From Prauserella aidingensis (GTDB lineage: Bacteria; Actinomycetota; Actinomycetes; Mycobacteriales; Pseudonocardiaceae), in contig NZ_JAMTCN010000005.1 of the NCBI RefSeq assembly GCF_024171865.1, forward strand, positions 186,001 to 250,000: a DNA stretch of 64,000 bases, given 5' to 3'. Under the pieces are notes generated by a model. The model was given only the letters and a program-made list of their open reading frames with translations. It did no database searches and was not told the origin of the DNA. Position 1 is the stretch's first letter. Every line of letters starts with the position of its first letter. The position numbers and the translations under genes were made by a program. Positions 2,507 through 41,470 of this stretch are shown here, in pieces.

Positions 2507-2674
2507 GTGTTGCACTCTCCGGGGCTCGTGTTGCGGATCCGAGGACCCGTGTTGCGCTTCTGTGGGCCCGTGTTGCGGATCCGGGGGCTCGTGTTGCGTT
2601 TTCGGGGGTTCGTGTTGCGCTCTCAGGGCCCCGTGTTGTGCATTCCGGGCCGCGTGTCCTGCACTCGGAACGCC
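2507..2674 (+). repeat. 21-bp tandem repeat array A (8 units)
   Basis: Eight units begin at 2507, 2528, 2549, 2570, 2591, 2612, 2633 and 2654, each exactly 21 bases apart. The 5' part is nearly fixed (GTGTTGCG), the middle varies, and the 3' part is G-rich then C-rich; a working consensus is GTGTTGCGGATTCCGGGG plus three variable bases. A weaker ninth unit may start at 2487. Confidence 0.92.
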
Positions 2675-2832
2675 GAGATCTGCGCCGGTACTTTGAGTTC
2701 CTCAGCTGGTGCGCCGGTCTGCACCCGGTACGTCGAGGTCTGCACCCGGCGCTCCGTACTTCTGCGTTCACCGTGGGCGACCGGGTCACCGCTCGGCGAT
2801 GAGCGACGTCTCCCTGCGTGTCTCTCGAACCC

Positions 2833-2961
2833 GGAACACTCCCGCCGGCCCGCAACACGCCCCGGAATCCGCAACACGCGCTCCCGAATCCGCAACACGC
2901 GCCCGCGAAGGCGCAACACGGCCCCCGGAATGCGCAACACGGTCTCGCGAAGGCGCAACAC
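2833..2961 (-). repeat. 21-bp tandem repeat array B (about 7 units, inverted relative to array A)
   Basis: The complementary core GCAACAC occurs at 2852, 2871, 2892, 2913, 2934 and 2955, with a degenerate copy at 2833. Spacing is 21 bases except for two 19-base steps at the left end. The array runs up to the stop codon of the tetR gene at 2964. Confidence 0.9.
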
Positions 2962-2963
2962 GG

Positions 2964-3536
2964 CTACGGATGGTGCTCCAGGGCTCGACGGGCGAAGGCG
3001 ACCGTGTGGGCGCGGAGCGCGTTGTGGCGGTCCTCGGTGTCGCCGGGCATCAGGAATCCGGCCAGTTGCGGCAGGGTGTGCGGCCAGGCGGCCAGCCCGA
3101 GCAGGGTGAACAGGGTTGCTGCGGTCTCGCGGTCGACGTCGGTGCCCAGCGCGTGGGCGAGCGCGGCGATCTTCTCGTCGTAACCCTGTGCGCGGCGATC
3201 CTGGTCGGGCACGGGCCGGTCGTCGTAGTGCAGTGACTCCCAGAGCAGCAGACGCAGCAGTAGCGGGTGCTGCCGGTGGTAGTCGTAGAGCCTGCCGACG
3301 TACTCCGCCAGGTCGCCCTCGGGGAGGCCGATGCCCTTGGCGTGTTCGGCCTTCGCCTCGGTGATCACGGCGTCGAACAGCTTCTCTTTGCTGCCGAAAT
3401 AGCCGTAGATGCGCTCCTTGTTGACGCCTGCGCGGGCGGCGATGGTGTCGACGCGTGCGCCCGCGATGCCGTGCGCGGCGAACTCGTCGCGTGCGGCATC
3501 GAGGAGTCGTTGCCGGGTGCTGCTCATGACGTCCAT
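2964..3536 (-). CDS. TetR-family transcriptional regulator
   Basis: Repressor, about 190 aa from the ATG at 3536. The N-terminal helix-turn-helix is clear (RQRLLDAARDEFAAHG, then ARVDTIAARAGVNKERIYGYF), followed by an all-helical ligand domain. A second ATG at 3527 (MSSTRQ) is an alternative start; the longer frame to 3635 runs through the operator and is unlikely. The gene is divergent from an MFS exporter gene, with a perfect palindrome between them, so it most likely represses the exporter and itself and is released by an exporter substrate. The effector is unknown. Confidence 0.9.
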   Translation of the reverse strand: MDVMSSTRQRLLDAARDEFAAHGIAGARVDTIAARAGVNKERIYGYFGSKEKLFDAVITEAKAEHAKGIGLPEGDLAEYVGRLYDYHRQHPLLLRLLLWESLHYDDRPVPDQDRRAQGYDEKIAALAHALGTDVDRETAATLFTLLGLAAWPHTLPQLAGFLMPGDTEDRHNALRAHTVAFARRALEHHP

Positions 3537-3564
3537 GTCTACCAGGCGCCAACTGTTCGGTTGA

Positions 3565-3582
3565 CAACCAACTGGTTGGTTG
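3565..3582. promoter_or_regulatory. palindromic operator between tetR and MFS genes
   Basis: A perfect inverted repeat, CAACCAAC-tg-GTTGGTTG, lies 28 bases from the tetR start and 14 bases from the MFS start. Its size and place fit a TetR operator controlling both genes. A TTGACA at 3561-3566 overlaps its left edge. Binding by the adjacent TetR is inferred. Confidence 0.75.
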
Positions 3583-3596
3583 GTCACAGTGGCGGT

Positions 3597-4787
3597 ATGC
3601 CCGACACGGATGTACCCGCGCGTCCGGCCGCACACTCCTGGGCGTCGCCGGCCAGAACCCTCGCGATCCTGGTGACCAGCGGCGTCGTCGGCGTCGGTCA
3701 GACCTATTCCGTCATCCCGCTGCTGCCCGCGATCGCCGACGAGTTCGGCATGTCGACGTCCGCCGCGACCTGGATGTCGACGGGCTTCAGCCTCACGTTC
3801 GCGCTGAGCTTCCTACTGGCGGGGCCGCTCGCCGACCGGTTCGGCCCACGACGCGTCATCCTCATCGGTTTCGTCGCCGCGGCCGCGACGACGGTGGCCG
3901 TGACACTCGCGTCGACGCCGGGCGCCGCCGTCGCGCTGCGATGCGTGCAGGGTGCGGCCGTCGCGATGCTCGTGCCCACCGGGTTCGCCTACGTGACGGC
4001 GCACCTCGAACCGGGCAGACGTCCCGTGGCGTTCAGTGCGCTGGCCAGCGCCGGCATCGCGTCGGCCGTCGTGCTGCAGGTCGCCGCGCAGCTGCTGGCT
4101 CCACTGGGCTGGCGGGCGGTGTTCCTCGCGTCGGGCGGAGCGTTCGCGGGGCTCGTGGGCCTCGCGGCGACGTTGTTGCGCCCGGATTCGCAGGGGGCGA
4201 CGCCGCGTGCCGAGTCGGTCGTCTCCGCGCTCGCGGCCGTGCCGAAGTTGCTGGGCCGGCCGCGGCTGCTCGGCCTGTACCTCGCGACGGCGGCACTGCT
4301 CGGTGCGTTCGTCATCGTGTACACCGTCGTCGAGCTCGCGGGCCCCGCCGCGGTCGACAGTCCGGGAGCGATGCTGGCACTGCGGGCGAGCGCGCTCCCC
4401 GCCGTACTCGTGGCGCCGCTGCTCACCGGGGTCATGTCGGCGATTCCGGCCCGGGTGCGGGCGACGGCGTCGCTCGCCGTGGCCGCGGTGGCCGCGTTGC
4501 TGTTGCCGTCGGCGAGTGGGGACGTCGTCGCGCTCGGTGCCCTACTGTTCGTGTTCGTCGGCGGGGTCGCGCTCGGGTCGCCGGGGTTGGTCGCCTCGAT
4601 CCACGGCCGTGCGGGCGGCTCGGTCGGGGCGGCGACCGCGCTGTACACGGCGTCGCTGTTCCTCGGCGCCAGCGTGGGGCCGCAGGTCGTCGCCGCTCTC
4701 GGTGGCTTCACTCCGACCTTGCTGGCCACCGGTGGGATCCTCGCGGTCGCGGCAGGGCTGGTGTGGGTCTCGACGCGCGGCGACTGA
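3597..4787 (+). CDS. MFS transporter (drug-efflux type)
   Basis: Proton-driven membrane transporter of 396 aa with about 12 hydrophobic segments. The loop 2-3 motif (GPLADRFGPRRV) and the N-terminal TYSVIPLLPAIADEFG resemble the arabinose/drug-exporter branch of the family. The ATG at 3597 is chosen because longer frames to 3267 read through the divergent tetR gene and the operator. The tetR neighbour suggests inducible export of a toxic compound. Substrate unknown. Confidence 0.88.
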   Translation: MPDTDVPARPAAHSWASPARTLAILVTSGVVGVGQTYSVIPLLPAIADEFGMSTSAATWMSTGFSLTFALSFLLAGPLADRFGPRRVILIGFVAAAATTVAVTLASTPGAAVALRCVQGAAVAMLVPTGFAYVTAHLEPGRRPVAFSALASAGIASAVVLQVAAQLLAPLGWRAVFLASGGAFAGLVGLAATLLRPDSQGATPRAESVVSALAAVPKLLGRPRLLGLYLATAALLGAFVIVYTVVELAGPAAVDSPGAMLALRASALPAVLVAPLLTGVMSAIPARVRATASLAVAAVAALLLPSASGDVVALGALLFVFVGGVALGSPGLVASIHGRAGGSVGAATALYTASLFLGASVGPQVVAALGGFTPTLLATGGILAVAAGLVWVSTRGD

Positions 4788-4854
4788 CGTGTGCTCCTGC
4801 CGACCGTGCACGACCGCAGTACACGCGGGAGCACGGTGCCGCACGCGGTGGCCT

Positions 4855-4957
4855 GCAACACGGCGCCCGGAGAACGCAACACGGTCCCCCGAGAACGCAA
4901 CTCGAGCTCCGGAATCCGCAACACGGCGCCCGGGATCCGCAACACGGCGCGCGGGTG
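4855..4957 (-). repeat. 21-bp tandem repeat array C (5 units)
   Basis: Core GCAACAC (or GCAACTC) at 4855, 4876, 4897, 4918 and 4939, all exactly 21 bases apart, between the convergent MFS and rmlA genes. The first unit shares a 20-base identity (4844-4863) with 6036-6055 inside the broken Asp-box gene. Confidence 0.9.
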
Positions 4958-4959
4958 GG

Positions 4960-5841
<882 letters not shown>

Positions 5842-5969
5842 CGCCCGCCCTTCGTACCGTTTCCGCCCGTCCGGGTCGTCGACCGCCTCGCCGCGTGCGC
5901 GCCCGGCGCCGACCCGCCGTCTCCGCGACTGAGCTCCGCGACTGAGTTCCGGCTCAGCCTTCCGGGGGA

Positions 5970-7300
5970 TCAGGGTACCGGTTGGCGGGACGGCCCGGTG
6001 CCGAAAAAGACCCGACAGCCGTCGTCGGTGCGGTCCGCGGTGGCCTGCAACACGGTGTCGCCACCGTCGACCGGCAGCAGCGACGGGCTGTAGTTCGGGC
6101 ACGGGTCGTCCACCGGGTCGGCGACCTGCACGGGAGCGGGCACCTCGTACCATTCGCCGGAACCGGGGTCGTCGTTGGCGAGGATCGTCCGGCCGTTGCC
6201 CGCGTTGGGCGTGCCGTCGGCGTTGGCGTAGATCTGGCCGATGAGCAGCACCCGCGTGCCGTTCGGGCCGCCGGGGAAGAGCGAGATCGTGGGCGAGTGC
6301 CGGAAGTGGCGGCCCTCCGGCGTGGCGACCTGCGTGCCGGGTTCGGCCGGGTCGCCGAAGTCCTCGCCGTCGCCGGAGATCGTGAAGTACGGGTCGCAGA
6401 ACCGCTCGCCGAAGTTGCAGATCTCGTAGCTGAAGTAGTGCCGTCCGTCGGGAAGGGTGCGCGTGATGGGCATGCCGGGGCGCACCTCCCACGGCGAGAT
6501 CGTCAGGGTGCGGGCCGGGGCGCTCCAGTCGACGAGGTCGTCCGTCGACCTGCGGGCGAGGAACTGGTCGAACTCGCGCTCACCGCGTTCGTCGGCGTAG
6601 TGCATCTGCAGGGTGCCGGAGTCGTCGACGTCGAACTCCGGTTCCCACACGCCCGGTGGGCCGTACGACGTGACCGGCTCGCCCGCGAAGTGCCACGAGC
6701 GCCCGGTGTCGGTGCTCGCCCAGATGCGGATGCCGATCTCGCGGGTGTCGCGCGGGGCCTTCTGCCGGTAGCTGGCCGCCCACAGCAGCGTGCCCTTCGG
6801 GTACCGGCCGATGCTGCGCGGCAGTTCGTACAGGGTTCCGCAGCACATGCCGCTGCCGTAACGGCCCTCCGGGTCGCGCACCTCGCCGACCTTGTCGAAG
6901 CTGCGGCCCTCGTCGGTGCTCTCGTAGATGGGCGCATAGAAGCCGCGGTCGTCCGTGCTGGTCATCGTCGCGAGGATGCGGCCGTTGTGGCTCTCGTGGC
7001 CGTGCTGGGTGCGGATGAGCCGCGGGTACGCGCCGTAGCCGTCGTGCAGCTGCTCCCGGTCGGCGGCCTGCGCGACGGCGGGGGACAGGGTCAGGCGACG
7101 GCGGGGGACAGGGTCAGGCACAGGACCGCGGTGGCGACGACCGCCAGCGCCCGGCGCAGTGGTGAACGTTCCCGTGGTGCGGGTGGTGCGGACCGGCGGG
7201 ACGGCCACGCGCCGTGGGTCGGCGCGTGGCTGGTGGCCGGGTTGCTAATGGCCGGGTTGCTGGTGGTCGCGTGGCTGGTGGTCGACCAATGGATGTGCAC
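5970..7300 (-). pseudogene. secreted Asp-box (BNR/sialidase-fold) protein, frameshifted by a 23-bp tandem duplication
   Basis: The body (5970 to about 7095) encodes a beta-propeller-like protein with two Asp-boxes (STDEGRSF and STDTGRSW) and conserved blocks such as [14 protein letters not shown]. The signal peptide (RRALAVVATAVLCL, ending SPAVA) is in a different frame, which stops at 7091. The cause is visible: 23 bases at 7072-7094 are repeated exactly at 7095-7117. Removing one copy joins the frames and gives a normal signal peptide with a cleavage site before QAADREQLH. As the sequence stands, the product cannot be exported intact. The exact start is uncertain: a GTG at 7300 follows the upstream terminator, whereas the ATG at 7339 lies inside it. 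The N-terminal region also carries TSHATTSNP-like repeats. Function unknown; possibly an extracellular glycan-binding protein or hydrolase. An assembly error is a possible alternative. Confidence 0.75.
7072..7117. repeat. exact 23-bp tandem duplication
   Basis: Bases 7072-7094 and 7095-7117 are identical. Because 23 is not a multiple of three, the duplication separates the signal-peptide frame from the body of the secreted Asp-box protein. Confidence 0.95.
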
Positions 7301-7303
7301 GGA

Positions 7304-7336
7304 AAACCCCCGGTCTCCGACGGCGACCGGGGGTTT
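7304..7336 (-). terminator. intrinsic terminator downstream of the yajQ-family gene
   Basis: A 12-bp perfect stem (7304-7315 with 7325-7336) with a 9-base loop; on the minus strand it ends in TTTT. It lies about 120 bases after the yajQ-type gene and would insulate the broken secreted-protein gene. Confidence 0.75.
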
Positions 7337-7453
7337 CAAACACGATCAGGTGACGAATGGTCAACGGTTCACGATCTTTTCACCGAGGCGGCAGAGGGTT
7401 GTCCCACCTCCGTGGTCCCGCGACCGAGTGCATGCGCCACACCTGCGACGACG

Positions 7454-7945
7454 TCACCGGTAGTTCATGAACTGCAACGCGATGCCGAAGTCCTTCTCCT
7501 TCAACAGCGTGATCACGTCCTGCAGGTGGTCCTTCTTCTTGCCCGACACCCGCAGCTGATCACCCTGGATCTGCGCCTGCACACCCTTCGGACCCTCGTC
7601 CCGGATGTACTTCGAGATCTGCTTCGCCTTGTCCTGGTCGATGCCCTCGACGATCGAACCCGACACCTTGTACGTCTTGCCCGACGCCGCAGGCTCGCCC
7701 GCATCGAACGCCTTCATCGACACGCCACGCTTGACCAGCTTCTCCTTGAAGACGTCGACAGCGGCCTTCACCCGCTCCTCGGTCTCGGCCTCCACCACGA
7801 CGGCGTTGTCACCCGACCACGCCACCGACGCGCCCGTGCCACGGAAGTCGAACCGCGTCGACAGCTCCTTGGCCGCCTGGTTCACCGCGTTGTCCACCTC
7901 TTGCCGGTCGACCTTGCTCACCACGTCGAACGACGGATCCGCCAC
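7454..7945 (-). CDS. YajQ-family nucleotide/RNA-binding protein
   Basis: Small cytoplasmic protein of the UPF0234/YajQ family, 163 aa (the usual length), with two ferredoxin-like halves. Members have been reported to bind nucleic acid or cyclic di-GMP; which applies here is unknown. The characteristic opening ([19 protein letters not shown]) and the C-terminal [11 protein letters not shown] are intact. The GTG at 7945 is chosen because it gives that opening and has GAGGTG upstream; the ATG at 8020 would add 25 non-conserved residues. Single gene with its own terminator. Confidence 0.9.
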
Positions 7946-8109
7946 GCCTGAAGCACCTCGCTGTCTGGTTCTCGCTGGTTCGGAGAGTTCTCGGGAACGT
8001 GGCCGCCGACGCGGCCACAACGGGTAAGCGTAGTCACCGGGTACCCGCCTGCGGGCGCGTCCGCCGCAGGCGGTACGCTGTCATCTTGCCGGACACGGAG
8101 CCGGCACCC

Positions 8110-8191
8110 GGCGGGTTGCCCGAGCGGCCAAAGGGAGCTGACTGTAAATCAGCCGGCACTGCCTTCGGGGGTTCGAATCCCTCACCCGCCA
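8110..8191 (+). tRNA. tRNA-Tyr (GTA)
   Basis: Full cloverleaf with a 7-bp acceptor stem (GGCGGGT with ACCCGCC), anticodon GTA in a TGTAAA loop, a long class II variable arm as expected for bacterial tRNA-Tyr, and the T-loop GTTCGAATC. CCA is not encoded. Confidence 0.96.
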
Positions 8192-8198
8192 CTCGATC

Positions 8199-8242
8199 GA
8201 AGGCGCCCCCTGCTTGTCGCTGGGGGCGCCTTCGCTTTTTTT
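8199..8242 (+). terminator. intrinsic terminator of tRNA-Tyr
   Basis: 12-bp perfect stem (8199-8210 with 8222-8233) followed by GC and seven T residues. Confidence 0.9.
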
Positions 8243-8254
8243 CGATCATCGTCG

Positions 8255-8310
8255 ATGTCCTCTGGGGGCGCAGCCCCCAGACCCCGCCCGGGGCGGTCCC
8301 CGGAGCCCCA
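8255..8310. repeat. GC-rich palindromic element after tRNA-Tyr
   Basis: Contains the short inverted repeat TGGGGGCGCAGCCCCCA followed by a GACCCCGCCCGGGG-type hairpin. A related but diverged block follows tRNA-Thr at about 37130-37190. It probably adds RNA secondary structure; no gene is present. Confidence 0.45.
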
Positions 8311-8432
8311 TCGGCCGGCGGGCGGCGTGTTTTGTGGGGTGCCTGCCCACGTTCCTGTCCGGGGAGGCTCAGGACGCCGTCGGGCGGCGGTTGCAGTGCC
8401 CTGCCCGGCCGGCCGCCGGGGCGGGGCCGGCG

Positions 8433-9092
8433 TCAGCGGTCGTTGCAGTGGGTGAGGACGCCGCGGATGGCTTCGGCCTCGGCGCGGTCGACGGTCAGCT
8501 CGTAGCGCTGTTTGATCGACACCCAGCGGGTGACGTAGCCGCACCGGTCGCGCTCGGGCAACCAGCTCGCCGGGTCCTGATCGCCCTTCGACCGATTCGA
8601 CCCCGCGGTGACGGCCACGAGCACGTCGGGATCGTTGGCGTAGGACTCCCGCTCGGCCTCGCTCCACTCCCGACTGCCCGAACGGGCCACCTCGGCCAGC
8701 GGCACGAAATGGTCCACGTCCAGATCGGACGGATCGGTGACGGTCTCGCCGTCGTAGCTGCTCCGCCACGTCCCGGACAGGTCACAGTCGTCGCCGACCT
8801 CGACGTTCTCGCCCTGCTGCTTCAAGGTGCGGTCACGGGTGTCGCACCCGTCGCCGAGATACGTCCAGTGCGGCCAGTCGTCCCGATCGTACGGCGCGCC
8901 CGTGTCCTCCGGCGCCACCGTCAACTCAGCCAGGTCGGCCGGCGACGCCGACCCGGGCGCCGACCCGGGCGCCGACCCGGGCGCCGACGTCGACGAACCC
9001 GCAGCGTCGAGGTCGACCAACCCACAGCCGGCGACACCCAGAGCGGCCAGCAGTGTCAGCGCGGCGGCGGCGGTGCGGGTGCGCGTGCCCAT
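8433..9092 (-). CDS. HNH/DUF1524-type lipoprotein (putative secreted nuclease)
   Basis: 219 aa. The signal sequence ends in a lipobox (GVAGC, Cys23), so the protein is probably anchored outside the membrane. Next comes a low-complexity APGS repeat (a 12-base DNA repeat at about 8950-8990), then a domain with LDVDHFVPLAE and SNRSKGDQDPASWLP, the His-containing betabetaalpha-metal core and Asn/Lys region of the DUF1524/HNH group, common in extracellular actinobacterial nuclease-like proteins. Four cysteines (CDTRD, CDLSG, RCGY, HCND) could form disulphides. Nuclease activity is inferred from the family. A short tandem array lies upstream in the promoter region. Confidence 0.85.
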   Translation of the reverse strand: MGTRTRTAAAALTLLAALGVAGCGLVDLDAAGSSTSAPGSAPGSAPGSASPADLAELTVAPEDTGAPYDRDDWPHWTYLGDGCDTRDRTLKQQGENVEVGDDCDLSGTWRSSYDGETVTDPSDLDVDHFVPLAEVARSGSREWSEAERESYANDPDVLVAVTAGSNRSKGDQDPASWLPERDRCGYVTRWVSIKQRYELTVDRAEAEAIRGVLTHCNDR

Positions 9093-27911: not shown

Positions 27912-29129
27912 ATGCCGGACAATCGCGTTGTCGTCTACAAGGGTCCGGGTGAGGTCGCGGTGGAATCCGTCGACTACCCGAAACTGGAACTGCCGAGCGA
28001 CGTCGTCGACGGACTCGGAATCAAGAAGAAGGCGCCGCACGCGGCGATTCTGCGGATCGTCACCACCAACATCTGCGGAAGCGATCAGCACATGGTGCGA
28101 GGCCGCACCACGGCTCCGGTCGGGCAGACGCTCGGCCACGAGATCACCGGCGAAGTCGTGGAGGCCGGCGACGACGTGCTGTTCGTCCGGGAGGGCGACA
28201 TCTGCTCCGTCCCGTTCAACATCGCCTGCGGCCGCTGCCGGATGTGCAACGAGGGAAAGACCGGAATCTGCCTCAACGTGAATCCGGCTCGCCCGGGCGC
28301 CGCCTACGGGTACGTCGACATGGGCGGCTGGATCGGCGGCCAGGCGGAGTACGTCATGGTGCCGTTCGCGGATTTCAACCTGCTCACATTCCCGGACCGC
28401 GACCGGGCGCTCGAAAAGATTCTCGACCTGACGATGCTGTCCGATATTTTCCCGACCGGATATCACGGCGCCTACACCGCGGGCGTCACCACCGGCTCGA
28501 CCGCCTACGTCGCGGGCGCGGGCCCCGTCGGGCTGGCGGCCGCGCACGCCGCACAACTGCTCGGCGCGTCGGCGGTGATCGTCGGCGACATGATCCCGGA
28601 GCGACTCGAACAGGCGCGGAGCTTCGGCTGCGAGACGGTCGACCTGCGGACCGACGCGTCGTTGGCCGACATGATCGAGCAGATCACCGGTGAGCCCGAG
28701 GTCGACGCCGCCGTCGACGCCGTCGGCTTCGAGGCCCGCGGCCACGGCAAGGATGCGGGCGAACAACCGGCGACCGTGCTCAACGACGTCATGGGCATCG
28801 CGAGAGCGGGGGCTTCACTCGGCATCCCGGGGCTGTACGTCACCGGCGATCCCGGCGCGCCCGACGAGAACGCCAAGGTCGGCCAGCTCGGCGTGCGCAT
28901 CGGGCTGGGTTGGGCCAAGTCGCATTCGATGACGACCGGTCAATGTCCGGTGAAGAAGTACAACCGCCAGTTGATGAACATGGTCCTCAGCGGCAGGGCC
29001 GACATCGCCAAGGCCGTCAACGCCACGACGATCTCGCTCGACGAGGCGCCGCAGGGATACCAGGAGTTCGACAGCGGCGTGGCCCGCAAGTTCGTCATCG
29101 ACCCGCACGGCATGGCCCCCGCGGCCTGA
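27912..29129 (+). CDS. fdhA: formaldehyde dehydrogenase, glutathione-independent
   Basis: NAD-dependent zinc dehydrogenase of 405 aa, oxidising formaldehyde to formate without added thiol (Pseudomonas putida FdhA type). Catalytic zinc: NICGSDQHMVRGR and GHEITGEV; structural zinc: CGRCRMCNEGKTGIC. The PARPGAAYGYVDMGGWIGGQAEYV block and GAGPVGLAAAHAAQ fold are diagnostic. ATG at 27912 gives the standard PDNRVVVYKGPGEVAVE opening. It is the second formaldehyde dehydrogenase in the window. Likely regulated by the nearby GntR through the palindrome upstream. Followed by a 21-bp repeat array. Confidence 0.92.
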   Translation: MPDNRVVVYKGPGEVAVESVDYPKLELPSDVVDGLGIKKKAPHAAILRIVTTNICGSDQHMVRGRTTAPVGQTLGHEITGEVVEAGDDVLFVREGDICSVPFNIACGRCRMCNEGKTGICLNVNPARPGAAYGYVDMGGWIGGQAEYVMVPFADFNLLTFPDRDRALEKILDLTMLSDIFPTGYHGAYTAGVTTGSTAYVAGAGPVGLAAAHAAQLLGASAVIVGDMIPERLEQARSFGCETVDLRTDASLADMIEQITGEPEVDAAVDAVGFEARGHGKDAGEQPATVLNDVMGIARAGASLGIPGLYVTGDPGAPDENAKVGQLGVRIGLGWAKSHSMTTGQCPVKKYNRQLMNMVLSGRADIAKAVNATTISLDEAPQGYQEFDSGVARKFVIDPHGMAPAA

Positions 29130-29150: not shown

Positions 29151-29255
29151 GTGTTGCGGATTCCGGGGCTCGTGTTGCGGGTCTAGGGGACCGTGTTGCG
29201 GATTCCGGGGCTCGCGTTGTGGATCCAGGGGACCGTGTTGTCGTTTCGGGGTGCG
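29151..29255 (+). repeat. 21-bp tandem repeat array D (5 units)
   Basis: Units at 29151, 29172, 29193, 29214 and 29235, exactly 21 bases apart, cores GTGTTGCG, GTGTTGCG, GTGTTGCG, GCGTTGTG and GTGTTGTC. It lies between fdhA and the phosphatase gene, both on the plus strand. Confidence 0.9.
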
Positions 29256-30020: not shown

Positions 30021-30061
30021 CCGAGGCACGGCGGGCCGGCCGCACCGCCGATCCGGAATCC

Positions 30062-30143
30062 GCAACACGAGCCCCCGAACCTGCAACACGGGCACCGGAA
30101 TCCGCAACACGGACTCCCGAATCCGCAACACGGCGGCCTCGGG
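30062..30143 (-). repeat. 21-bp tandem repeat array E (4 units)
   Basis: Core GCAACAC at 30062, 30083, 30104 and 30125, exactly 21 bases apart, between the convergent phosphatase and DUF309 genes. Confidence 0.9.
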
Positions 30144-30629
30144 TCAGGGGCGCAGGCGTGGGGCGATCGTCGAGGCGTCGGGCAGTTCGGTGCGGGTCGG
30201 CATGCCGGACGCGAGCGTGACTGCCCAGTCGCACAACCCGGCCACGTCGATGCCGTGGGGAGCCTCGTCGGTGAACGGTTCGATGGACTCCGCGCCGCGG
30301 GTGAGCAACGACGCGGCGCCGGTGAAGTTGCCGCGCGCCGCATGTGTCAGCCCGACGGCCAGTTGCGCCAACCCGCGCCACAGCCCGCGCTCGGCGTCCG
30401 GCCCCGACTTCCACGCGTCCTCGAACACCTCGTGGGCGTGGAACGGCTTGCCGTCGTCGAGCAGCTGCTGCGCTTCGGCGACCGTGGCGTCCGGGGTGCG
30501 TTCCACGCCCTCGGGGGCGCGTTCCACACCCGGCGAGCCGTACGGCAACGGCCTGCCGAGGCCGTCCCGCGGGCGCGCGTTACGTGCCCTGCCGTCCGAG
30601 TCCCTGTCGCGTCGCAACCGTTCACTCAC
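30144..30629 (-). CDS. DUF309 family protein
   Basis: 161 aa from the GTG at 30629. The core helix HAHEVFEDAWKSGPDAERGLWRGLAQLAVGLTHAARGN is the DUF309 signature. The N-terminal ~45 residues are basic and unconserved, so the true start may be further in. Soluble, helical, function unknown. It lies 114 bases after the end of ctaD on the same strand and may share its transcript. Confidence 0.8.
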   Translation of the reverse strand: MSERLRRDRDSDGRARNARPRDGLGRPLPYGSPGVERAPEGVERTPDATVAEAQQLLDDGKPFHAHEVFEDAWKSGPDAERGLWRGLAQLAVGLTHAARGNFTGAASLLTRGAESIEPFTDEAPHGIDVAGLCDWAVTLASGMPTRTELPDASTIAPRLRP

Positions 30630-30743
30630 ACCCCGAGTCTGACACGTGCCGCCGGCGGCCGACTGCGGCCGAGGGCGCCGCTCGGTCTCCGGACGCGTGC
30701 GCCACCGACACCGGGCCGCCACGAGGGCTCGGCGCGGCCTCCC

Positions 30744-32543: not shown

Positions 32544-32699
32544 GACGGCACCTCCACCAGCACGTTCACCTGCGCGGGGACGATCCCCCGTCGACCGTAG
32601 GCCCGCGCGGTCGTGATCGCAGCACGTCGTCACCTCGTCACCTCGTCAACGCCACGGCTGTGGTGCATCGCGGGCGGCGCGGTGGAGTGTCGAGTGGGT

Positions 32700-32781
32700 G
32701 CAACACGAGCCCCCGGAACCGCAACACGGGCCCCGGAAACCGCAACACGGGCTCCTGGGGGCGCACACGGTGGTGTGCGGG
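32700..32781 (-). repeat. 21-bp tandem repeat array F (4 units)
   Basis: Core GCAACAC at 32700, 32721 and 32742 and a degenerate GCGCACAC at 32763, 21 bases apart, between the 5' end of ctaD and the 3' end of the GNAT gene (both minus strand). It ends at the GNAT stop codon. Confidence 0.88.
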
Positions 32782-33795
32782 TCAGCTCACGGCGGGGCGC
32801 CGGTACCAGGACGTCCAGAGCGGACGGTAACCGTGGGCGTACCAGAACGGCGTCGACCGCGGGCTCTCCAGCGCGTGGTGCAACAGCACGGCCTCGACGT
32901 CCTCCGAATCGAACAGCTGGTGCGCGTGCGCGACGAGGGCGGACCCGACGCCGCTGCTGCGCGCCTCCTCGGCGACGTGCAGGGACGCCAGGTAGCCGAC
33001 CCGCTCGACACCCACGTAGCCGGCGATCCAGTTCGCCTGCGGCGGCAGTTCCACCTCGAGGAAGCCGAGCGGCCTGCCGTACAGCTCGGCCACCCACAGC
33101 CCCGGCACCGGGGTGTCGGCCGCGAGCTGGGCGCGGGCGTCCTCGGTGAGCCGCTCCAGTGCGTCCGAGCGCGGGGTGACGACGCCGAACTGTGAGTCGT
33201 AGGCGTGCAGCTCGGCGCGCATCCTCGTCAGGGTGGGCAGATCGCCCTCGGCGGCCTCGCGGATACGCACGCCGGGGACGGCGGGCGGGCCCGAGCCCAG
33301 CCGGTTGGCGGGCCGTACCGCGAGCACCCGGGTGGCGGCGAAACCGCGGCGCAGCAACGCCGTCGACCCGGACGTGTCCCTGCTCGGCCGCGTGACCACG
33401 GCGGCGCAGTCCCAGCCGTAGCCCTCGTCGTAGGAGACGGCCTCCGCGAGCTGGTCCTCCCAGCGGCACAGCAGCCCGTCGACCGCGGCGGCCGGGTCGC
33501 TGCCTGCCACCCGCAGATCGAGGCGGTACTCGACCAGCGGGCGCCACAGCGAGCCCATCGAGCCAGGGGCGACCGCGGACCGGCCCGCGAACGCCACGCC
33601 GTCGCGGGTGCGCAGCACGGCCGACGCGGACGGGTTCGTGAACGCGGGGAGCATGGAGTCCTCGGCCGCCATCCGTTCGGCGTACGCATCGAGGACCGCG
33701 GCGTCGCGGTCCGCGCTCCCGCGGTCGGACTTGCCGTCGGTGTCGTGCTTCGGGTCGCGACCGGTTCGGGCGCCGCGGGTACCCTGCGCCTGCAT
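32782..33795 (-). CDS. GNAT-family N-acetyltransferase
   Basis: 337 aa, two parts. Residues 1 to ~150 are a poorly conserved domain possibly derived from a second GNAT fold (SWRPLVEYRLDLRV-like). The C-terminal GNAT domain (about 175-330) contains the acetyl-CoA pyrophosphate loop (HVAEEARSSGVGSALVAHA) and the terminal strand pattern (RSTPFWYAHGYRPLW). ATG at 33795 has GAGGTGGGAC upstream. Acetyl acceptor unknown. Confidence 0.85.
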   Translation of the reverse strand: MQAQGTRGARTGRDPKHDTDGKSDRGSADRDAAVLDAYAERMAAEDSMLPAFTNPSASAVLRTRDGVAFAGRSAVAPGSMGSLWRPLVEYRLDLRVAGSDPAAAVDGLLCRWEDQLAEAVSYDEGYGWDCAAVVTRPSRDTSGSTALLRRGFAATRVLAVRPANRLGSGPPAVPGVRIREAAEGDLPTLTRMRAELHAYDSQFGVVTPRSDALERLTEDARAQLAADTPVPGLWVAELYGRPLGFLEVELPPQANWIAGYVGVERVGYLASLHVAEEARSSGVGSALVAHAHQLFDSEDVEAVLLHHALESPRSTPFWYAHGYRPLWTSWYRRPAVS

Positions 33796-34115
33796 GTCCC
33801 ACCTCACTGTCGGCATCGCTGTGATCGACCGCCGGCTATGGCGCATCTCACCGCGTGCACATCATGACATCCAATGAGTGACTGCCGACTGCTACTGGCC
33901 GCGATCGACTCCGATGCTGCATCACTCGCATGCGGTTAACGAAGCCTTACGTTCATGTCGGGCTCACGGCGAGTTGACCTGACGGTGGTCAAATCAGATG
34001 CTTTGTCCGTCGTGCGGGGTAAGGTTTATGCCTCGTTCGCGGGCAGTTGCAGGTCCCCGTCGGGGCCTACGGCCGACGAGTGACCCGCGTGACGGTGACG
34101 GAAGGGGAAGGTGGC
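33796..34115. other. intergenic region upstream of the GGDEF-EAL gene
   Basis: 320 bases between divergent genes, with lower GC around 33850-34010. A TTGACC at 33974 and TAAGGT at 34020 are each promoter-like but not at consistent spacing. No gene, tRNA or repeat was found. Confidence 0.45.
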
Positions 34116-36893: not shown

Positions 36894-36916
36894 GACGCTG
36901 ACCCTGCTGACCTGAG
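36875..36916. repeat. 22-bp tandem duplication across a stop codon
   Basis: The 20 bases at 36875-36894, including the TGA stop of the GGDEF-EAL gene, recur at 36897-36916. The second copy lies outside the gene, so the protein is unaffected. Confidence 0.88.
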
Positions 36917-36952
36917 GCTTCGCGGCCGGCTCGGGGGAACCCCACCCCCGTG

Positions 36953-36981
36953 TTCGCGCGGTCGTGGTCCTCGGGTACTCT
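36953..36981 (+). promoter_or_regulatory. candidate promoter of tRNA-Thr
   Basis: TTCGCG (36953-36958), 17-base spacer, TACTCT (36976-36981), 20 bases before the tRNA. The -10 box is good for actinobacteria, the -35 weak. Confidence 0.4.
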
Positions 36982-37001
36982 ATTCGAGGCTCGTTGAGCA
37001 C

Positions 37002-37073
37002 GCCCCTTTAGCTCAGTGGCAGAGCGTCTCCATGGTAAGGAGAAGGTCAACGGTTCGAACCCGTTAAGGGGCT
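37002..37073 (+). tRNA. tRNA-Thr (GGT)
   Basis: Acceptor stem GCCCCTT with AAGGGGC, D-arm GCTCAGTGGCAGAGC, anticodon stem TCTCC/GGAGA with loop ATGGTAA (anticodon GGT), T-loop GTTCGAACC. CCA is not encoded. Confidence 0.96.
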
Positions 37074-37129
37074 CGCGATCGGGAGTGGTCTGCCGACGGA
37101 CTGCGTCGGCCTGGATCGCTCGCTGATCA

Positions 37130-37192
37130 TTGTGGGGGCGAAGCCCTCACGCCCCACCCGGTGGCTCTGCCTCCGGACCCCCGGATGTGACG
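37130..37192. repeat. GC-rich element between tRNA-Thr and tRNA-Met
   Basis: GTGGGGGCGAAGCCCTCACGCC and a following CCACCCGGTGG hairpin resemble, with divergence, the element after tRNA-Tyr (8255-8310). No gene is present. Confidence 0.4.
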
Positions 37193-37279
37193 TGGACGGG
37201 TCACGGTGCAGGTTCGATTGCGGGCCTCGCCACAGTGACCAGGGTTTTCGGCTCGTTCGGGCTAGGCTGGGGTTGGCAG

Positions 37280-37353
37280 GGCGGGGTAGCTCAGGTGGTT
37301 AGAGCACACGGCTCATAATCGTGGTGTCGCGGGTTCAAGTCCCGCCCCCGCTA
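37280..37353 (+). tRNA. tRNA-Met (CAT, elongator type)
   Basis: D-arm GCTCAGGTGGTTAGAGC, anticodon loop with CAT, T-arm GCGGGTTCAAGTCCCGC, acceptor GGCGGGG with CCCCGCT (one G-U pair at the end). The pairing at position 1-72 argues against an initiator tRNA. CCA is not encoded. Confidence 0.94.
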
Positions 37354-37407
37354 CTCGGACTACACGGCCACGGCGGTGGCCCACTCATCGTTGAAAGAGG
37401 AAAGACC

Positions 37408-37575
37408 GTGGCTTCTTCCACCGACGTTCGCCCGAAGATCACCCTCGCGTGCGAGGAGTGCAAGGACCGCAACTACATCACCAAGAAGAACCGGCGTAAC
37501 AACCCGGACCGTCTTGAGATGAAGAAGTTCTGCCCCAAGTGCGGCACACACCGTGCCCACAAGGAGACCCGCTGA
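37408..37575 (+). CDS. rpmG: 50S ribosomal protein L33
   Basis: 55 aa, normal length. It has the two CxxC zinc pairs (CEECKDRNY and FCPKCGTHR), so this is the zinc-binding form. GTG at 37408 is preceded by AGAGGAAAG. It begins the conserved actinobacterial series rpmG - hadAB - trpT - secE - nusG, here interrupted by a protease gene, a YtrA-type GntR pair and an aminotransferase. Confidence 0.97.
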
Positions 37576-37605
37576 CCCCAGCGGCCTCCGGGCTCACGAC
37601 CGTCG

Positions 37606-37642
37606 AACCGCCCTCGCCACATCGGCGAGGGCGGTTTTTTTT
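37606..37642 (+). terminator. intrinsic terminator of rpmG
   Basis: Perfect 13-bp stem (37606-37618 with 37624-37636, the outer pairs A-T) followed by eight T residues in total. Confidence 0.93.
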
Positions 37643-37823
37643 GTGTCCGGACCCGGTGACGGTTTGTCACGTGAAGACACCCCGGCTCCGGATGTTTGTC
37701 ATTTTCCGAGCAAAACCGGCGCAAGTGAGAAAGATCCCCTCGAAAGGACCTACCCGGGGACTTCTCGCCAACTCACACTGTCGCGTGACACCTCCCAACC
37801 CTGCGGAAAAGTGAGTTGCCGGT

Positions 37824-38921
37824 ATGAACCTGTCGCGCAAGAGCGTCATCACCGCCGCCGCGGGTGCGCTGGCCTTGGGGTTGTTCGCCCCGGGTGCAGC
37901 CGCCTCCGCATCCGTCCCGAGTATCGAGGGCTACTCGGACGTCGTCGCCGATGAAGCGATCTCCACCCTGACGAGTGAGCGCGGGCTGAGCGAGACGGCC
38001 GCCGCGAAGCTGCTGCAAGTCCAGCAGCGGAGCGTCGACACGCTCGACGAGGTCCGCTCCGCCATCGCAGGCGATCTGGTCGGCGAACACCTCGACGCCC
38101 AGGGCAACCCGGTCGTCACCGTCGCCACGCAGGCGGCCGCCGACAAGGCCGAAGCCGCGGGCGTGACCGCCGAGCTCGCCGAGCGCACCACCGAACAGCT
38201 GGACGCCGCCCGCGCGAAGCTCGAAGCCGCCGCCGTCCCGCACACCTCCGTCGGCCTCGACCCCGCCGAGAACCAGCTCGTGCTGACCATCGGCGAGAAG
38301 GCCGCCGACGGCGCGGCGGGCAAGCTCACCTCGACCGCCCGGAAGCTGGGCGACGCCGTGCGCGTCGAGCACGTCGCAGGCGGCATGAAGAAGAGCATCT
38401 ACAACGGCGAAGCCATCACGGGTGGCGGTAGCCGCTGCTCGGCGGGCTTCAACGTCAACAACGGTTCGCAGGACTACATCCTCGACGCCGGCCACTGCAC
38501 CGGCGCGGTCTCGCAGTGGAACGTCGGCCCCTCGGTCGACGCCAGCTTCCCGGGCAACGACTACGGCCTGATCCGCAACGACACCGGCAGCGCCCCCGGC
38601 GCCGTCACGCTGTGGAACGGCAGCACGCAGGCCATCAACTCGGCGGCCAACGCCACCGTCGGCCAGGACATCTGCAAGAGCGGTTCCACGACGCAGCTGA
38701 CCTGCGGCACCGTCCAGGCCACCAACGTCACCGTCAACTACGCCGAAGGCGCCGTTCGCGGCCTGGTTCAGACGTCCGCGCGGGTCGATTCCGGCGACTC
38801 CGGCGGCTGCCTGTTCTCCGGCAGCACCGGCGTCGGCATCACCTCCGGCATGGGCGGCGGCAGCTCCTACTTCCAGCCGGTCACCGAAGCCCTGTCGGCG
38901 TACGGCATGTCCCTGAACTGA
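37824..38921 (+). CDS. secreted serine protease, streptogrisin/alpha-lytic type (S1 family)
   Basis: 365 aa preproprotein. Signal peptide 1 to ~29 (AAAGALALGLFAPGAAASA), a pro-region of ~160 residues that assists folding (Ala/Glu-rich, with AKLEAAAVPHTSVG), and a mature domain from about 190. The catalytic triad is His224 (DAGHCTGA), Asp246 (GNDYGLI) and Ser326 (DSGDSGG). Cys205-Cys225 and Cys284-Cys294 are positioned for disulphides; Cys329 has no obvious partner. Start ATG at 37824 follows a weak GTGAG-like site. It stands alone between rpmG and hadA, a location foreign to the ribosomal cluster, suggesting insertion. Confidence 0.92.
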   Translation: MNLSRKSVITAAAGALALGLFAPGAAASASVPSIEGYSDVVADEAISTLTSERGLSETAAAKLLQVQQRSVDTLDEVRSAIAGDLVGEHLDAQGNPVVTVATQAAADKAEAAGVTAELAERTTEQLDAARAKLEAAAVPHTSVGLDPAENQLVLTIGEKAADGAAGKLTSTARKLGDAVRVEHVAGGMKKSIYNGEAITGGGSRCSAGFNVNNGSQDYILDAGHCTGAVSQWNVGPSVDASFPGNDYGLIRNDTGSAPGAVTLWNGSTQAINSAANATVGQDICKSGSTTQLTCGTVQATNVTVNYAEGAVRGLVQTSARVDSGDSGGCLFSGSTGVGITSGMGGGSSYFQPVTEALSAYGMSLN

Positions 38922-38943
38922 CGCCCACCTCGCCAATCTTTCA

Positions 38944-38997
38944 CGCCCCCAAGGGCACTTTGGTTGCACTCAACGCCACCAAAGTGCCCTTGGGGGC
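38944..38997. repeat. dispersed ~54-bp interrupted palindrome, copy 1
   Basis: Arms of about 20 bases (38946-38966 and 38976-38996) built on GCCCCCAAGGGCACTTTGG and its complement enclose a TTGCACTCAACGCC-type loop. A second, diverged copy lies after rplL at 48509-48562. It sits 23 bases after the protease stop and may also serve as a terminator. Confidence 0.88.
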
Positions 38998-39072
38998 ACT
39001 GTTGCGCACAGGAGGTCGCCTGCCGGTTCAGTCCAGTGGGTGAAGGATTTTCAGGCCGGTAGAGTCTGCGCC

Positions 39073-39522
39073 GTGCCTTTGGATCCGTTATTCGTCGGGC
39101 GCACCTATCCGCCCGAAACGACCTACGAGGTCGGCCGCGCCAAGATCGCCGAGTTCGCCGACGCGATCGGCGACGACAACCCGCTCTACCTCGACGTCGA
39201 GGCCGCCAAGGGTGCCGGGTACGCGGACGTGATCGCGCCGCCCACCTTCCTGACGATCATCAACATCCGCGCCATCAACGCGGTCGTCGAGGATCCCGAA
39301 CTTGGCCTCGACTACGACCGCATGGTCCACGGCGACCAGAGGTTCGTGCACCACCGGCCTGCGTGCGCGGGGGACCGGTTGCAGGTGACGGTGCACATCG
39401 ACGACGTCTTCGTGCGTGCGGGCAACGACTTCCTCAGCGTCCACGCCGACATCGCCACCGAGGGCGGCGAACCCGTCTGCACCACCTACGCCCAGCTCGT
39501 CGTCAGGGGGGAGCGGTCGTGA
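39073..39522 (+). CDS. hadA: MaoC-like dehydratase, HadA type
   Basis: 149 aa hot-dog-fold protein; with HadB it should dehydrate (3R)-hydroxyacyl thioesters in fatty-acid elongation. The N-terminal-type MaoC domain begins VGRTYPPETTYEVGRAKIAEFADAIGDDNPLY and has APPTFLTI and VHGDQRFVHHRP. It lacks the catalytic Asp-x4-His hydratase motif found in its partner, as HadA proteins do. GTG at 39073 is chosen by conservation. Its stop overlaps the hadB GTG. The rpmG-hadA-hadB-trpT order is the same as in mycobacteria. Confidence 0.88.
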   Translation: MPLDPLFVGRTYPPETTYEVGRAKIAEFADAIGDDNPLYLDVEAAKGAGYADVIAPPTFLTIINIRAINAVVEDPELGLDYDRMVHGDQRFVHHRPACAGDRLQVTVHIDDVFVRAGNDFLSVHADIATEGGEPVCTTYAQLVVRGERS

Positions 39523-39917
39523 ACGTCGGAGACGAACTGCCGGGCCTGTCCGTGCGCGTCACCCGCAAGCAGCTGGTTCGCTACGCGGGCGCCTCGCTGG
39601 ACTTCAACGCCATCCACTGGAGCGAACGCTTCGCCACCGACGTCGGGCTGCCGAACGTCATCGCCCACGGCATGCTGACCATGGCGCTCGGCGGACGCGT
39701 CGTCACCGACTGGCTCGGCGACCCCGGCCGCGTCGTCGAGTACGGCGTGCGATTCACCCGCCCGGTCGTCGTGCCGGACGACGACGAAGGTGCGCTGGTC
39801 GAATTCACGGCCAAGGTCGGCGAGGTCCGCGACGACGGCACCGCCCGCGTCGACATCACGGCCAAGTTCGACGGCAAGACCGTCCTCGGCAAGGCCCAGG
39901 CGGTCGTGCGGGCGTAA
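39519..39917 (+). CDS. hadB: MaoC-like dehydratase, HadB type (catalytic subunit)
   Basis: 132 aa hot-dog protein. The hydratase motif is intact: YAGASLDFNAIHWSERFATDVGLPNVIAHGML holds the catalytic Asp and His. GTG at 39519 overlaps the hadA stop (GTGA), so the two subunits are made together. No hadC follows, which fits an organism without mycolic acids; the pair may serve ordinary or long-chain fatty-acid synthesis or another hydroxyacyl-CoA step. Confidence 0.9.
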   Translation: MNVGDELPGLSVRVTRKQLVRYAGASLDFNAIHWSERFATDVGLPNVIAHGMLTMALGGRVVTDWLGDPGRVVEYGVRFTRPVVVPDDDEGALVEFTAKVGEVRDDGTARVDITAKFDGKTVLGKAQAVVRA

Positions 39918-39922
39918 CCGCG

Positions 39923-40882
39923 TCAGGCGCTCTCGCGGGCGGCGACCAGGTCGTTGACGAGTCCCGCCGCTCGGTCGGCGTGGTCGACGGTGGCCTTGAC
40001 GACGTGTCCCGACGTCAACGTGACCGCGAGCGCCTCGCCCGCACGCACCTTGAACGCCGTGTAGCCGACACCCCGGCGCAGGCCGTATCCGCCGGCGCTC
40101 CACATCGTCAGCTGCTCGGTGTCGGCGGACGCGATCTCGTCGAACGTCAGTGTCCGGTGCGGGAAGCCGAACAGCCCGAGCGACAGCGCCACGCCGTCGG
40201 CGTCGACGCGAATCCGCACCCGGCAGGTCGCCGCCATCGCCAGCACGACGACCAGCACCACCAGCGCCAGCGGCATGACGTCGAAACCGGGCAGCGACAC
40301 CTGCAGCAGCGCGTACCCGCCCGCGACGGCGAGGCCGCCGAACGTCATCGGGTAGTTGGTGCCGCCGCCGATCCACGTCGCCCGTTCACCGGGCCGCAGG
40401 CCGGCCGACGGCAGGTCACGCGGCTCCGCGGGCGCCCGCCGTTCGGTCGGTCCCGCGACGAGCGCCGCGACCGCGCCCGCCACGACGCTCAGCCCCAGCG
40501 CCCACACGACCGCCGACCAGGCCGAACCCGCATCGCGCCACGACGTCGTGTCCAGTGCGGCGTACATCGAACCTGCGAGAACTCCCGCGGGCAGTGCCGC
40601 CACTCCCGCCGTGAACCCGACCGCGCTGCGCGGCACGGCCGACCCCCGGGCACGGGACACGAGCACAGCGACCAGCGTCCCCAGGGTCAGCGCGGCGCCG
40701 ATACCGAGGGTCACGCCGGTCAACGTCGACAGTGCCGACGACCGGTCGGGACCGTCCGTACCCCAGTGGATCGCCACCACCTCGGGGAGCCGGGCCGACC
40801 AGGCGGCCTGCAACGCCCAGACACCGCCGAGCGCCGCGAGCGGCACCGCTCCCGCGGCCAGTGCGAGTCTCGTCGTCCTCAT
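39923..40882 (-). CDS. DUF1648-type integral membrane protein
   Basis: 319 aa with about six membrane segments. The IHWGTDGPDR segment after the first TM helix is the DUF1648 signature; the C-terminal ~90 residues form a PH-like cytosolic domain (RIRVDADGVALSLGLFGFP). Translationally coupled (ATGA) to the upstream YtrA-type GntR gene, so it is the regulated partner of that repressor, as DUF1648 proteins often are. Role unknown; possibly envelope stress. Confidence 0.85.
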   Translation of the reverse strand: MRTTRLALAAGAVPLAALGGVWALQAAWSARLPEVVAIHWGTDGPDRSSALSTLTGVTLGIGAALTLGTLVAVLVSRARGSAVPRSAVGFTAGVAALPAGVLAGSMYAALDTTSWRDAGSAWSAVVWALGLSVVAGAVAALVAGPTERRAPAEPRDLPSAGLRPGERATWIGGGTNYPMTFGGLAVAGGYALLQVSLPGFDVMPLALVVLVVVLAMAATCRVRIRVDADGVALSLGLFGFPHRTLTFDEIASADTEQLTMWSAGGYGLRRGVGYTAFKVRAGEALAVTLTSGHVVKATVDHADRAAGLVNDLVAARESA

Positions 40883-41229
40883 GTGAACTTCTCCTTCACG
40901 ATCTCCGTGAGCTCGTCCAGATCGACTCCCACGCGACGTGCCTCGTCGGCGAGCTCTCCGGCCAGGGTGTTCAGACGTGCCCGCGTGTCGGCGGCGCCGG
41001 TGACGACCGCGCCGCGCCTGCGGCGCAGTTCGATCAGCCCCTCGTCGCGCAGCAGGCCGTAGGCGCGCAGCACGGTGTGCACGTTGATGTCGAGCGACGT
41101 CGCCAGCTCCCGCGCGGGCGGCAGCTGCTGTCCCTGGGCGAGCTCGCCGTCGGACAGGGCTCGCCGCACCGAAGCGGCGACCTGCTCGAACAGCGGCGCC
41201 TGGGACGCCGGATCGATCCGAATCAACAT
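40879..41229 (-). CDS. GntR-family regulator, YtrA type
   Basis: 116 aa: one winged-helix domain (FEQVAASVRRALSDGELAQGQQLPPARELATSLDINVHTVLRAYGLLRDEG) plus the short YtrA helical dimerisation tail, with no ligand domain. ATG at 41229 has no ribosome binding site and follows directly on the palindrome TTGTTCTA-N7-TAGAACAA, pointing to a leaderless message controlled by the protein itself. Overlaps the DUF1648 gene by 4 bases. Confidence 0.9.
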   Translation of the reverse strand: MLIRIDPASQAPLFEQVAASVRRALSDGELAQGQQLPPARELATSLDINVHTVLRAYGLLRDEGLIELRRRRGAVVTGAADTRARLNTLAGELADEARRVGVDLDELTEIVKEKFT

Positions 41230-41251
41230 TGTTCTAACTGTACTAGAACAA
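41229..41251 (-). promoter_or_regulatory. palindromic operator/promoter of the YtrA-type GntR operon
   Basis: Perfect 8-bp inverted repeat, TTGTTCTA and TAGAACAA, with a 7-base spacer. The inner arm touches the ATG (41229-41227). On the minus strand TACAGT ends 7 bases before the A of the ATG, a good -10 box for leaderless transcription. Confidence 0.75.
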
Positions 41252-41365
41252 ATGTCGTTGTCGAGTCGCATCCGCACGTGGACCCCGACGTCGGTCGCGT
41301 GGGCCGGCGCATCGATGACCGACCGTTGCCGCGACGGTCGGGCGCACCACGCCCCCCCGGAATCC

Positions 41366-41470
41366 GCAACACGGCCCCCGCAGTCCGCACCCCGAGCCCC
41401 TGGATCCGCAACATGGCCTCCGGAATCCGCAACACGAGCCCCGGAATCCGCAACACGGCGGCGTGGACGT
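41366..41470 (-). repeat. 21-bp tandem repeat array G (5 units)
   Basis: Core GCAACAC-type words at 41366, 41387 (GCACCCC), 41408 (GCAACAT), 41429 and 41450, exactly 21 bases apart. Confidence 0.9.

Follow-up and report, generated by a model that had tools for sequence, protein, structure and literature searches.

What are the arrays of 21-bp units that recur between the genes of a 64-kb stretch of the Prauserella aidingensis genome, and what could keep them at the ends of genes? The stretch, hereafter the window, covers positions 186001-250000 of contig C6 in an assembly (G000) of 5.65 Mb in 80 contigs, and seven such arrays lie within it. Our analysis supports their membership of a genome-wide, non-coding family with an exact 21-bp phase, spread through the Pseudonocardiaceae with clade-specific sequence. 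In our preferred reading, to which we give a probability of roughly 0.4, the arrays would be polar, helically phased DNA sites for a putative oligomerising protein that marks or blocks the end of transcription.

An earlier, sequence-only reading had located all seven arrays correctly, and their ends are only slightly revised here (ORF, open reading frame; gene labels are from Pfam):

Array 1, 2507..2674, plus strand: seven units with core GTGTTGCG and a degenerate last unit, CGTGTCCTGC...; the chain of full units is 2507-2653, and the earlier end at 2674 includes the degenerate eighth; sense, 39 bp 3' of an M48 peptidase gene (1562-2467) that we take to be htpX-like.
Array 2, 2819..2961, minus strand: seven cores, sense, immediately behind the stop of tetR (TAG, 2964-2966); the two distal steps measure 19 bp each.
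Array 3, 4841..4945, minus strand: five units, sense, 3' of a nucleotidyltransferase gene (4960-5841).
Array 4, 29151..29255, plus strand: five units, sense, 3' of an alcohol dehydrogenase-like gene (27912-29129).
Array 5, 30048..30131, minus strand: four units, sense, 3' of a DUF309 gene (ORF 30144-30722).
Array 6, 32686..32748, minus strand: three units, sense, 3' of a GNAT-domain gene (ORF 32782-33846).
Array 7, 41330..41456, minus strand: six units, sense, 3' of an aminotransferase gene (41584-42774).

The window contains 27 copies of the core GTGTTGCG, where 3.98 would be expected; none of 100 shuffles reaches this count, and 25 of the 27 copies fall inside the seven arrays. The step between units is 21 bp, apart from the two 19-bp steps of array 2, one 22-bp step in array 7 and, where array 4 ends, an additional 20-bp step to a core that is degenerate. 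As had been proposed, the arrays lie outside genes (none of the seven overlaps a called gene). All seven follow a 3' end and are sense to the gene immediately upstream. Arrays 1 and 2 do face each other between the convergent M48 peptidase and tetR genes, the real tetR ORF being 2964-3635, with its stop directly adjoining array 2. At array 7 the order is aminotransferase stop, strong hairpin, array; the hairpin, terminator-like in appearance (GGCCCCTCGGA...TCCGAGGGGCC), lies within 41456-41584. It is also present at the aminotransferase end in P. alba and P. halophila, where the orthologous arrays likewise stand behind it, and in P. isguenensis, where there is no array.

Each array is built from a 9-bp core and a 12-bp, partly conserved spacer; the unit consists of an asymmetric site some 19-20 bp long, approximately CCGTGTTGCGSNYYCSGGRG, to which one or two loose bases are added. 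The spacer is not free, as had been suggested, for it carries SNYYCSGGRG and is near-random only at unit position 10. Across 112 units flanked by cores on both sides, GTGTTG shows two mismatches in total over its six positions. Arrays start sharply at CCGTGTT, and YYCNRG is found in 82% of units inside the array, in 57% of last units and in 12% before the first core. Arrays contain two to nine units, and the number differs between orthologous ends.

The nearly exact phase described for the window extends through the genus. The Prauserella sample used here drew on the window, on contig C3, on stretches from five relatives and on 43 named loci no longer than 8 kb. Of its 418 distinct spacings between neighbours at most 25 bp apart, 392 equal 21 bp exactly (396 of 422 before duplicates were removed). 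In an anchor-free count of intergenic hexamers repeated three times at one period, period 21 scores 466 in this genome's sample, against 25 for the next period. It ranks first in 10 of the 14 samples, several of which had been picked for their known matches; the exceptions are G003, G020, G197 and G081 (the last a single 17-kb contig), and among the samples chosen without regard to matches or synteny it leads in G186 and not in these four. A lag analysis over all intergenic bases places 21 as the top lag in 8 of 14 samples. Other intergenic tandem periods were also seen, namely 23 bp at L272 (G197), 22 bp at L284 (G208) and 23 bp in the G003 sample (genera g27 and g4), and the repeat period within the family may vary.

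The claim that the window arrays belong to a larger family held throughout the genome, which contains 334 exact core pairs at 21 bp and none in a reversed-pattern control. Contig C3, 8% of the genome, carries 77 of the 334 pairs, and density is therefore uneven along the chromosome. The relatives compared were P. alba DSM 44590 (G095), P. isguenensis CECT 8577 (G033), P. halophila DSM 44617 (G067), P. rugosa NRRL B-2295 (G116), and the genomes G133 and G149. Any match to the exact core pair occurs in 27 of 249 family genomes, with 60-334 matches in six of seven Prauserella genomes and at most five in every other. The seventh genus genome, G149, has no exact core pair and instead carries 217 pairs of a different core, CGTGTCAGC, at 21 bp, a pair found in none of the other six. 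A looser pattern, CGTGT-N16-CGTGT-N16-CGTGT, matches in 67 of the 249 genomes and 19 of 46 genera, and reaches at least 10 matches in 36 genomes of 8 genera; the remainder beside CGTGT is specific to clades across the family, for example CGTGTCGTCCGTCCAATCACG or CGTGTCGTCCCGTGGCGTCGC. Among 394 genomes of the class, 391 lie outside the family, and 28 of these match the looser pattern, with a maximum of five matches each. The reversed control of this pattern is zero in this genome and gives 29 matches in G137, 20 in G160 and 56 in G547, so that single-digit counts carry little meaning. Matches in Chloroflexi (L076, L107 and L048, from metagenome-assembled genomes) were rejected: they are 7-bp GTGTTGC-type microsatellites, unrelated despite a nearly identical heptamer, which fit the pattern because 21 is three times seven; this verdict covers three inspected loci among the matches listed. 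The arrays do not resemble clustered regularly interspaced short palindromic repeats (CRISPR), in keeping with the earlier judgement: the core is short, the spacer partly conserved and the arrays short and scattered, although no search for cas genes was made. Among the matches listed in a search of the open-access literature (titles and abstract openings), there was no description of such arrays in Prauserella or the Pseudonocardiaceae.

Placement relative to genes was tabulated with genes called by a custom codon-score script rather than a standard gene finder. From 166 arrays collected, 15 (7 from Prauserella) were dropped, 10 for overlapping a called gene by more than 40 bp and the remainder for want of a called neighbour. 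The samples are not random: contig C3 was taken as the top of the match list, the relatives' stretches were taken by synteny with the window, stretches of G238, G148, part of P. rugosa and part of G149 were chosen where matches occurred, and the named loci and L185-L214 were found through the pattern itself; the G238 stretches also seem to hold N runs. These samples serve placement and anatomy, and abundance rests on the whole-genome counts. The 103 Prauserella arrays that were kept comprise 51 in convergent, 45 in codirectional and 7 in divergent gaps. Codirectional arrays are sense in 36 cases and antisense in 9 (p 6.6e-5), one of the nine being array 2, a gene-call error at the tetR/MFS start that was left in the count. 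Convergent arrays lie nearer the gene to which they are sense by 34 to 17 (p 0.024). The median distance from stop to first core is 18 nt, and 34 of the 36 codirectional sense arrays are nearer the upstream stop than the next start. Of 28 arrays whose start is over 30 nt away from the stop, 13 have a strong hairpin (stem of at least 12) in between. In G149, codirectional arrays are sense in 11 cases and antisense in 3, 18 of 30 sense arrays start within 13 nt of the stop, and 1 of 39 arrays lies inside a gene. The arrays are extragenic, biased toward 3' ends and rare in divergent gaps (7/103 in Prauserella, 0/42 in other genera, 4/39 in G149); fixed orientation, position after the gene end and phase occur together in Prauserella and largely in G149, and orientation is even elsewhere.

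The arrays are also retained. At the ends of orthologues of the seven array-bearing genes, arrays are present in 22 of 28 cases, whereas 28 array-free gene ends of the window have arrays at none of 79 orthologous ends; the 28 orthologous ends derive from seven loci in five relatives and are therefore not independent. The array 1 end carries an array in P. alba, P. halophila, P. isguenensis and G133, and none in P. rugosa or G149. Arrays are found at the array 2 end in P. alba and P. halophila and not in P. rugosa, and at the array 3 end in P. alba, G133 and P. halophila and not in P. isguenensis or P. rugosa. The ends of arrays 4 and 6 have arrays in four of four relatives each, that of array 5 in three of four and that of array 7 in two of three. 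In G149, arrays stand at one of two orthologous ends of array-bearing genes and one of five array-free ones; its nucleotidyltransferase end, orthologous to that of array 3, has a five-unit array with the CGTGTCAGC core. Spacers in orthologous arrays are 0.697 similar, compared with 0.673 between different loci (p 0.02), which amounts to almost complete turnover. Sequence just 3' of the arrays is alignable in some pairs (z >5 in 41% of 37 pairs), which may partly reflect neighbouring coding sequence.

At the htpX-like 3' end, 29 genomes of other genera have no CGTGT array in 21-bp phase within 230 nt, and a thirtieth, G148, has no close orthologue. The idea of an ancient, family-wide array at this end was rejected on these genomes, and the element is therefore dispensable there. 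Because arrays at these gene ends are mostly kept within the genus and are missing from the htpX-like end elsewhere, their origin probably lies within the genus or among its recent ancestors. In G020 (L270), the htpX-like end has a perfect hairpin with a 20-bp stem directly after the stop, at a place where most examined Prauserella have an array.

How might these features be connected? The exact phase and the rarity of off-phase steps point to double-stranded DNA that is read from one face, a step of 21 bp being two helical turns, which would place all units on one side. Sense orientation and closeness to the stop suggest that transcription leaving the gene is implicated, and retention at orthologous ends despite turned-over units is consistent with selection on core, phase and place. 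We propose that the array may be a boundary element of the 3' end, made of head-to-tail copies of the unit every 21 bp, that a sequence-specific protein would bind these units on double-stranded DNA and oligomerise along the phased array, and that the bound protein would have a polar effect on RNA polymerase as it leaves the gene, serving as roadblock, terminator or insulator. Local duplication and deletion would add and remove units while selection holds phase and core, and the clade-specific cores would reflect co-evolution of the binding protein with its sites. A polar protein roadblock or boundary of this kind would explain phase, orientation and persistence together, and cooperative protein binding, one of the two explanations first offered for the arrays, would fit the phasing, a core that does not vary and the retention of arrays at orthologous ends. 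The fuller proposition is rather unlikely as a whole: that the Pseudonocardiaceae possess a candidate gene-end system in which a dedicated, fast-evolving oligomerising protein, seated on phased asymmetric sites, ends or insulates transcription, with the 21-bp period and CGTGT kept and the remainder shifting genome-wide along with the protein.

The closest model for how the arrays may work is perhaps offered by the TTF-I and Reb1 sites, several asymmetric copies of about 18 bp found 3' of eukaryotic rRNA genes, at which a protein forms a polar roadblock. Those sites belong to another domain of life and to one gene type only, and no homology is claimed. Plasmid iterons are in-phase direct repeats of 17-22 bp that are bound cooperatively at one origin locus beside a rep gene; the arrays are likewise in-phase direct repeats, but scattered over many gene ends. 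The nearest described case of many small direct-repeat sets may be that of TAACTGA in Beggiatoaceae, where the sections of the source available to us describe 169 intergenic sets of few copies each in one genome, proposed as binding sites (PMC4679880). As described in those sections, the repeats are heptamers placed mostly just upstream of start codons, with no function shown (PMC4679880), unlike the 21-bp units found here just after stops.

Several observations weigh against a role in ending or insulating transcription. Most gene ends lack an array, a sense array being present at 23 of 217 transcription-unit ends in the sample. In the other genera (42 kept arrays), codirectional arrays are 9 sense and 10 antisense and convergent ones lie nearer the sense gene by only 9 to 14; this evenness may arise partly because units in another genus, g16, look near-palindromic, as judged by eye. 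Convergent arrays in G149 show no preference for the sense gene (7 to 9), and 4 of its 39 arrays are divergent. A strong hairpin already precedes several arrays, and another terminator there would seem superfluous. Of 54 arrays next to a stop, 7 have another strong hairpin, compared with 24% of length-matched controls (p 0.21); the idea that arrays substitute for hairpin terminators was accordingly set aside, a strong first count having become a non-significant trend after length matching. Avoidance of operon gaps depends on the null chosen: counted per gene end, none of 36 arrays lies in a gap under 50 bp, compared with 51%, but counted per base the avoidance fails, with 5 of 36 under 100 bp compared with 14%. 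Finally, P. rugosa has an array at none of the three orthologous ends examined, and the 29 array-free htpX-like ends point the same way.

It is possible, though somewhat unlikely, that the arrays are neutral or selfish tandem repeats of an interspersed kind, which duplicate repeatedly, seed gene ends and are tolerated there because promoters are undisturbed, their phase and core being kept only because copies are young or mutually corrected. The comparison that suggests itself is with mycobacterial interspersed repetitive units (MIRUs), which are tandem direct repeats scattered through the intergenic regions of an actinobacterium, variable in copy number and oriented with neighbouring genes; they measure tens of bp to about 100, lie between operon genes and have features of small ORFs. 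The arrays share the dispersed, intergenic, directly repeated arrangement and variable copy number, and differ from MIRUs, as these are described, in having 21-bp non-coding units located mostly at transcription-unit ends and found with changing sequence in several genera. Local duplication is supported in part: neighbouring units are 0.62 identical at variable positions, compared with 0.51-0.52 for random pairs, and identity declines from lag 1 to lag 3. Unit types occur in blocks. In Prauserella a type B, CGTGTYCTGC, keeps the same 21-bp phase and, in all mixed arrays but one, lies at one end or the other; in G149 a second type, CGTGTTGGC, is also in phase and is found in 12 of 77 listed middle units. 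Since type B occurs at both ends and CGTGTTGGC in middle units, no direction of array growth is claimed. Neutral repeats would also accord with the array-free ends in P. rugosa and at the htpX-like gene of other genera, with the even orientation outside Prauserella, with the failure of operon-gap avoidance per base, and with array frequencies that are about equal at convergent (13/119) and codirectional (10/98) ends. They fit less well with the retention of 22 of 28 orthologous positions while spacers were almost fully replaced. Nor do they readily account for off-phase steps as few as 26 in 418 when some 38% of variable positions, or about 4-5 per link, differ from one unit to the next; for the sense bias in Prauserella, which tolerance alone would not lead one to expect; or for a different core in G149 at a shared locus. 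Of the slippage-propagated family envisaged earlier, a contribution from local duplication is thus supported in part.

Distinctly unlikely is a second alternative, in which the arrays function as RNA at the 3' end of the mRNA, forming serial small hairpins (a UGUUG loop, with GGG pairing to the YYC of the next unit) that act as a terminator or 3' stabiliser. Sense orientation near the stop would suit such an element, and folding of the sense strand is indeed a little stronger than that of dinucleotide shuffles (mean z of -0.84 across 74 Prauserella arrays, p 0.004) and of the complementary strand (p 0.027); the folding set was limited to arrays of at most 260 nt and to 13 of the 43 named loci. 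Mean z is lowest in G148 (-1.61), G238 (-1.32) and this genome (-1.19), but near zero or positive in G149 (-0.22), G133 (0.24) and G186 (1.42), with few arrays each. In the register p+q=29, complementarity between adjacent units exceeds what is obtained when unit order is shuffled within arrays (17.84 vs 17.24, standard deviation 0.11, reached in 0 of 500 shuffles); this excess, small as it is, is the best sign of RNA or dyad structure. The arrays of G149 have a preferred first unit, exactly CGTGTCAGCACCCCACGTCGC in 17 of 39, and often a different last one (CGTGTTGGC in 18 of 39, CGTGTCAGC in 12 of 39). A stem with the core as loop is feasible by consensus, but most of the proposed pairs show almost no compensatory change (z is best, at 2-3, for the pair beside the core), and unit position 10 pairs in only about 30%. 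Covariation as support for a hairpin was rejected: mutual information reflects mainly dependence between neighbouring columns and likeness from unit to unit, and the named stem is mostly flat. The exact 21-nt step is unexplained by RNA, and Rfam at gathering scores returned four tRNAs in the window (8110-8191, 37002-37073, 37280-37353 and 43016-43088) and nothing at the arrays.

Two further explanations are highly improbable. A repeated peptide, with 21 bp as seven codons and one frame reading RVADSGA, is open in 34 of 35 arrays, but the other two sense frames are equally open (33/35 each), the invariant bases include wobble positions of the rare codons GTT (2% of Val codons) and CGT (9% of Arg codons), and stop-to-array distances are spread over all three frames (32, 28, 27); the arrays are therefore non-coding, as the sequence-only reading held. 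A repetitive extragenic palindromic (REP) or bacterial interspersed mosaic element (BIME) family, mobilised by a Y1 transposase of the REP-associated tyrosine transposase (RAYT) kind, would explain high-copy, extragenic, 3'-biased elements with a conserved 5' tag, and array-bearing P. rugosa (L313) and P. alba (L314), two of the seven Prauserella genomes, each have a single Y1_Tnp gene (PF01797), but the domain is missing from the other 9 of 11 genomes searched, including G000 and G149, the 3.35-kb loci around the two genes contain no array, and the units are tandem and asymmetric, with weak folding and scant compensatory pairing, rather than palindromes in alternating orientation. A RAYT/REP origin was accordingly rejected for this genome, which has no Y1_Tnp match. 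In the sections of the sources available to us, REPs are small, high-copy, extragenic elements located mainly downstream of coding regions, in unidirectional and convergent gaps, with suggested roles in termination and mRNA stability; they are palindromic, many carry a GTAG or CGTC tag, and they are linked to RAYT transposases (PMC3733652; PMC12306157). The arrays resemble REPs and BIMEs so described in being extragenic and downstream-placed, and differ in their asymmetric, strictly head-to-tail units at 21 bp.

Beyond what was first noticed in the window, then, the present comparison adds the sense orientation, the conserved spacer bases, the persistence at orthologous ends, the separate core of G149 and the spread through the family. 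If the arrays do end or insulate transcription, they would represent a closing of genes by protein on DNA, alongside termination by hairpins and by Rho. Should they be no more than repeats of unknown use, they would still present an uncommon pattern, in which place is kept while the spacers and, in one lineage, the core differ genome-wide. This combination of kept place and changed sequence makes co-evolution between the sites and a trans-acting factor directly testable across P. rugosa, P. alba and the G149 lineage.

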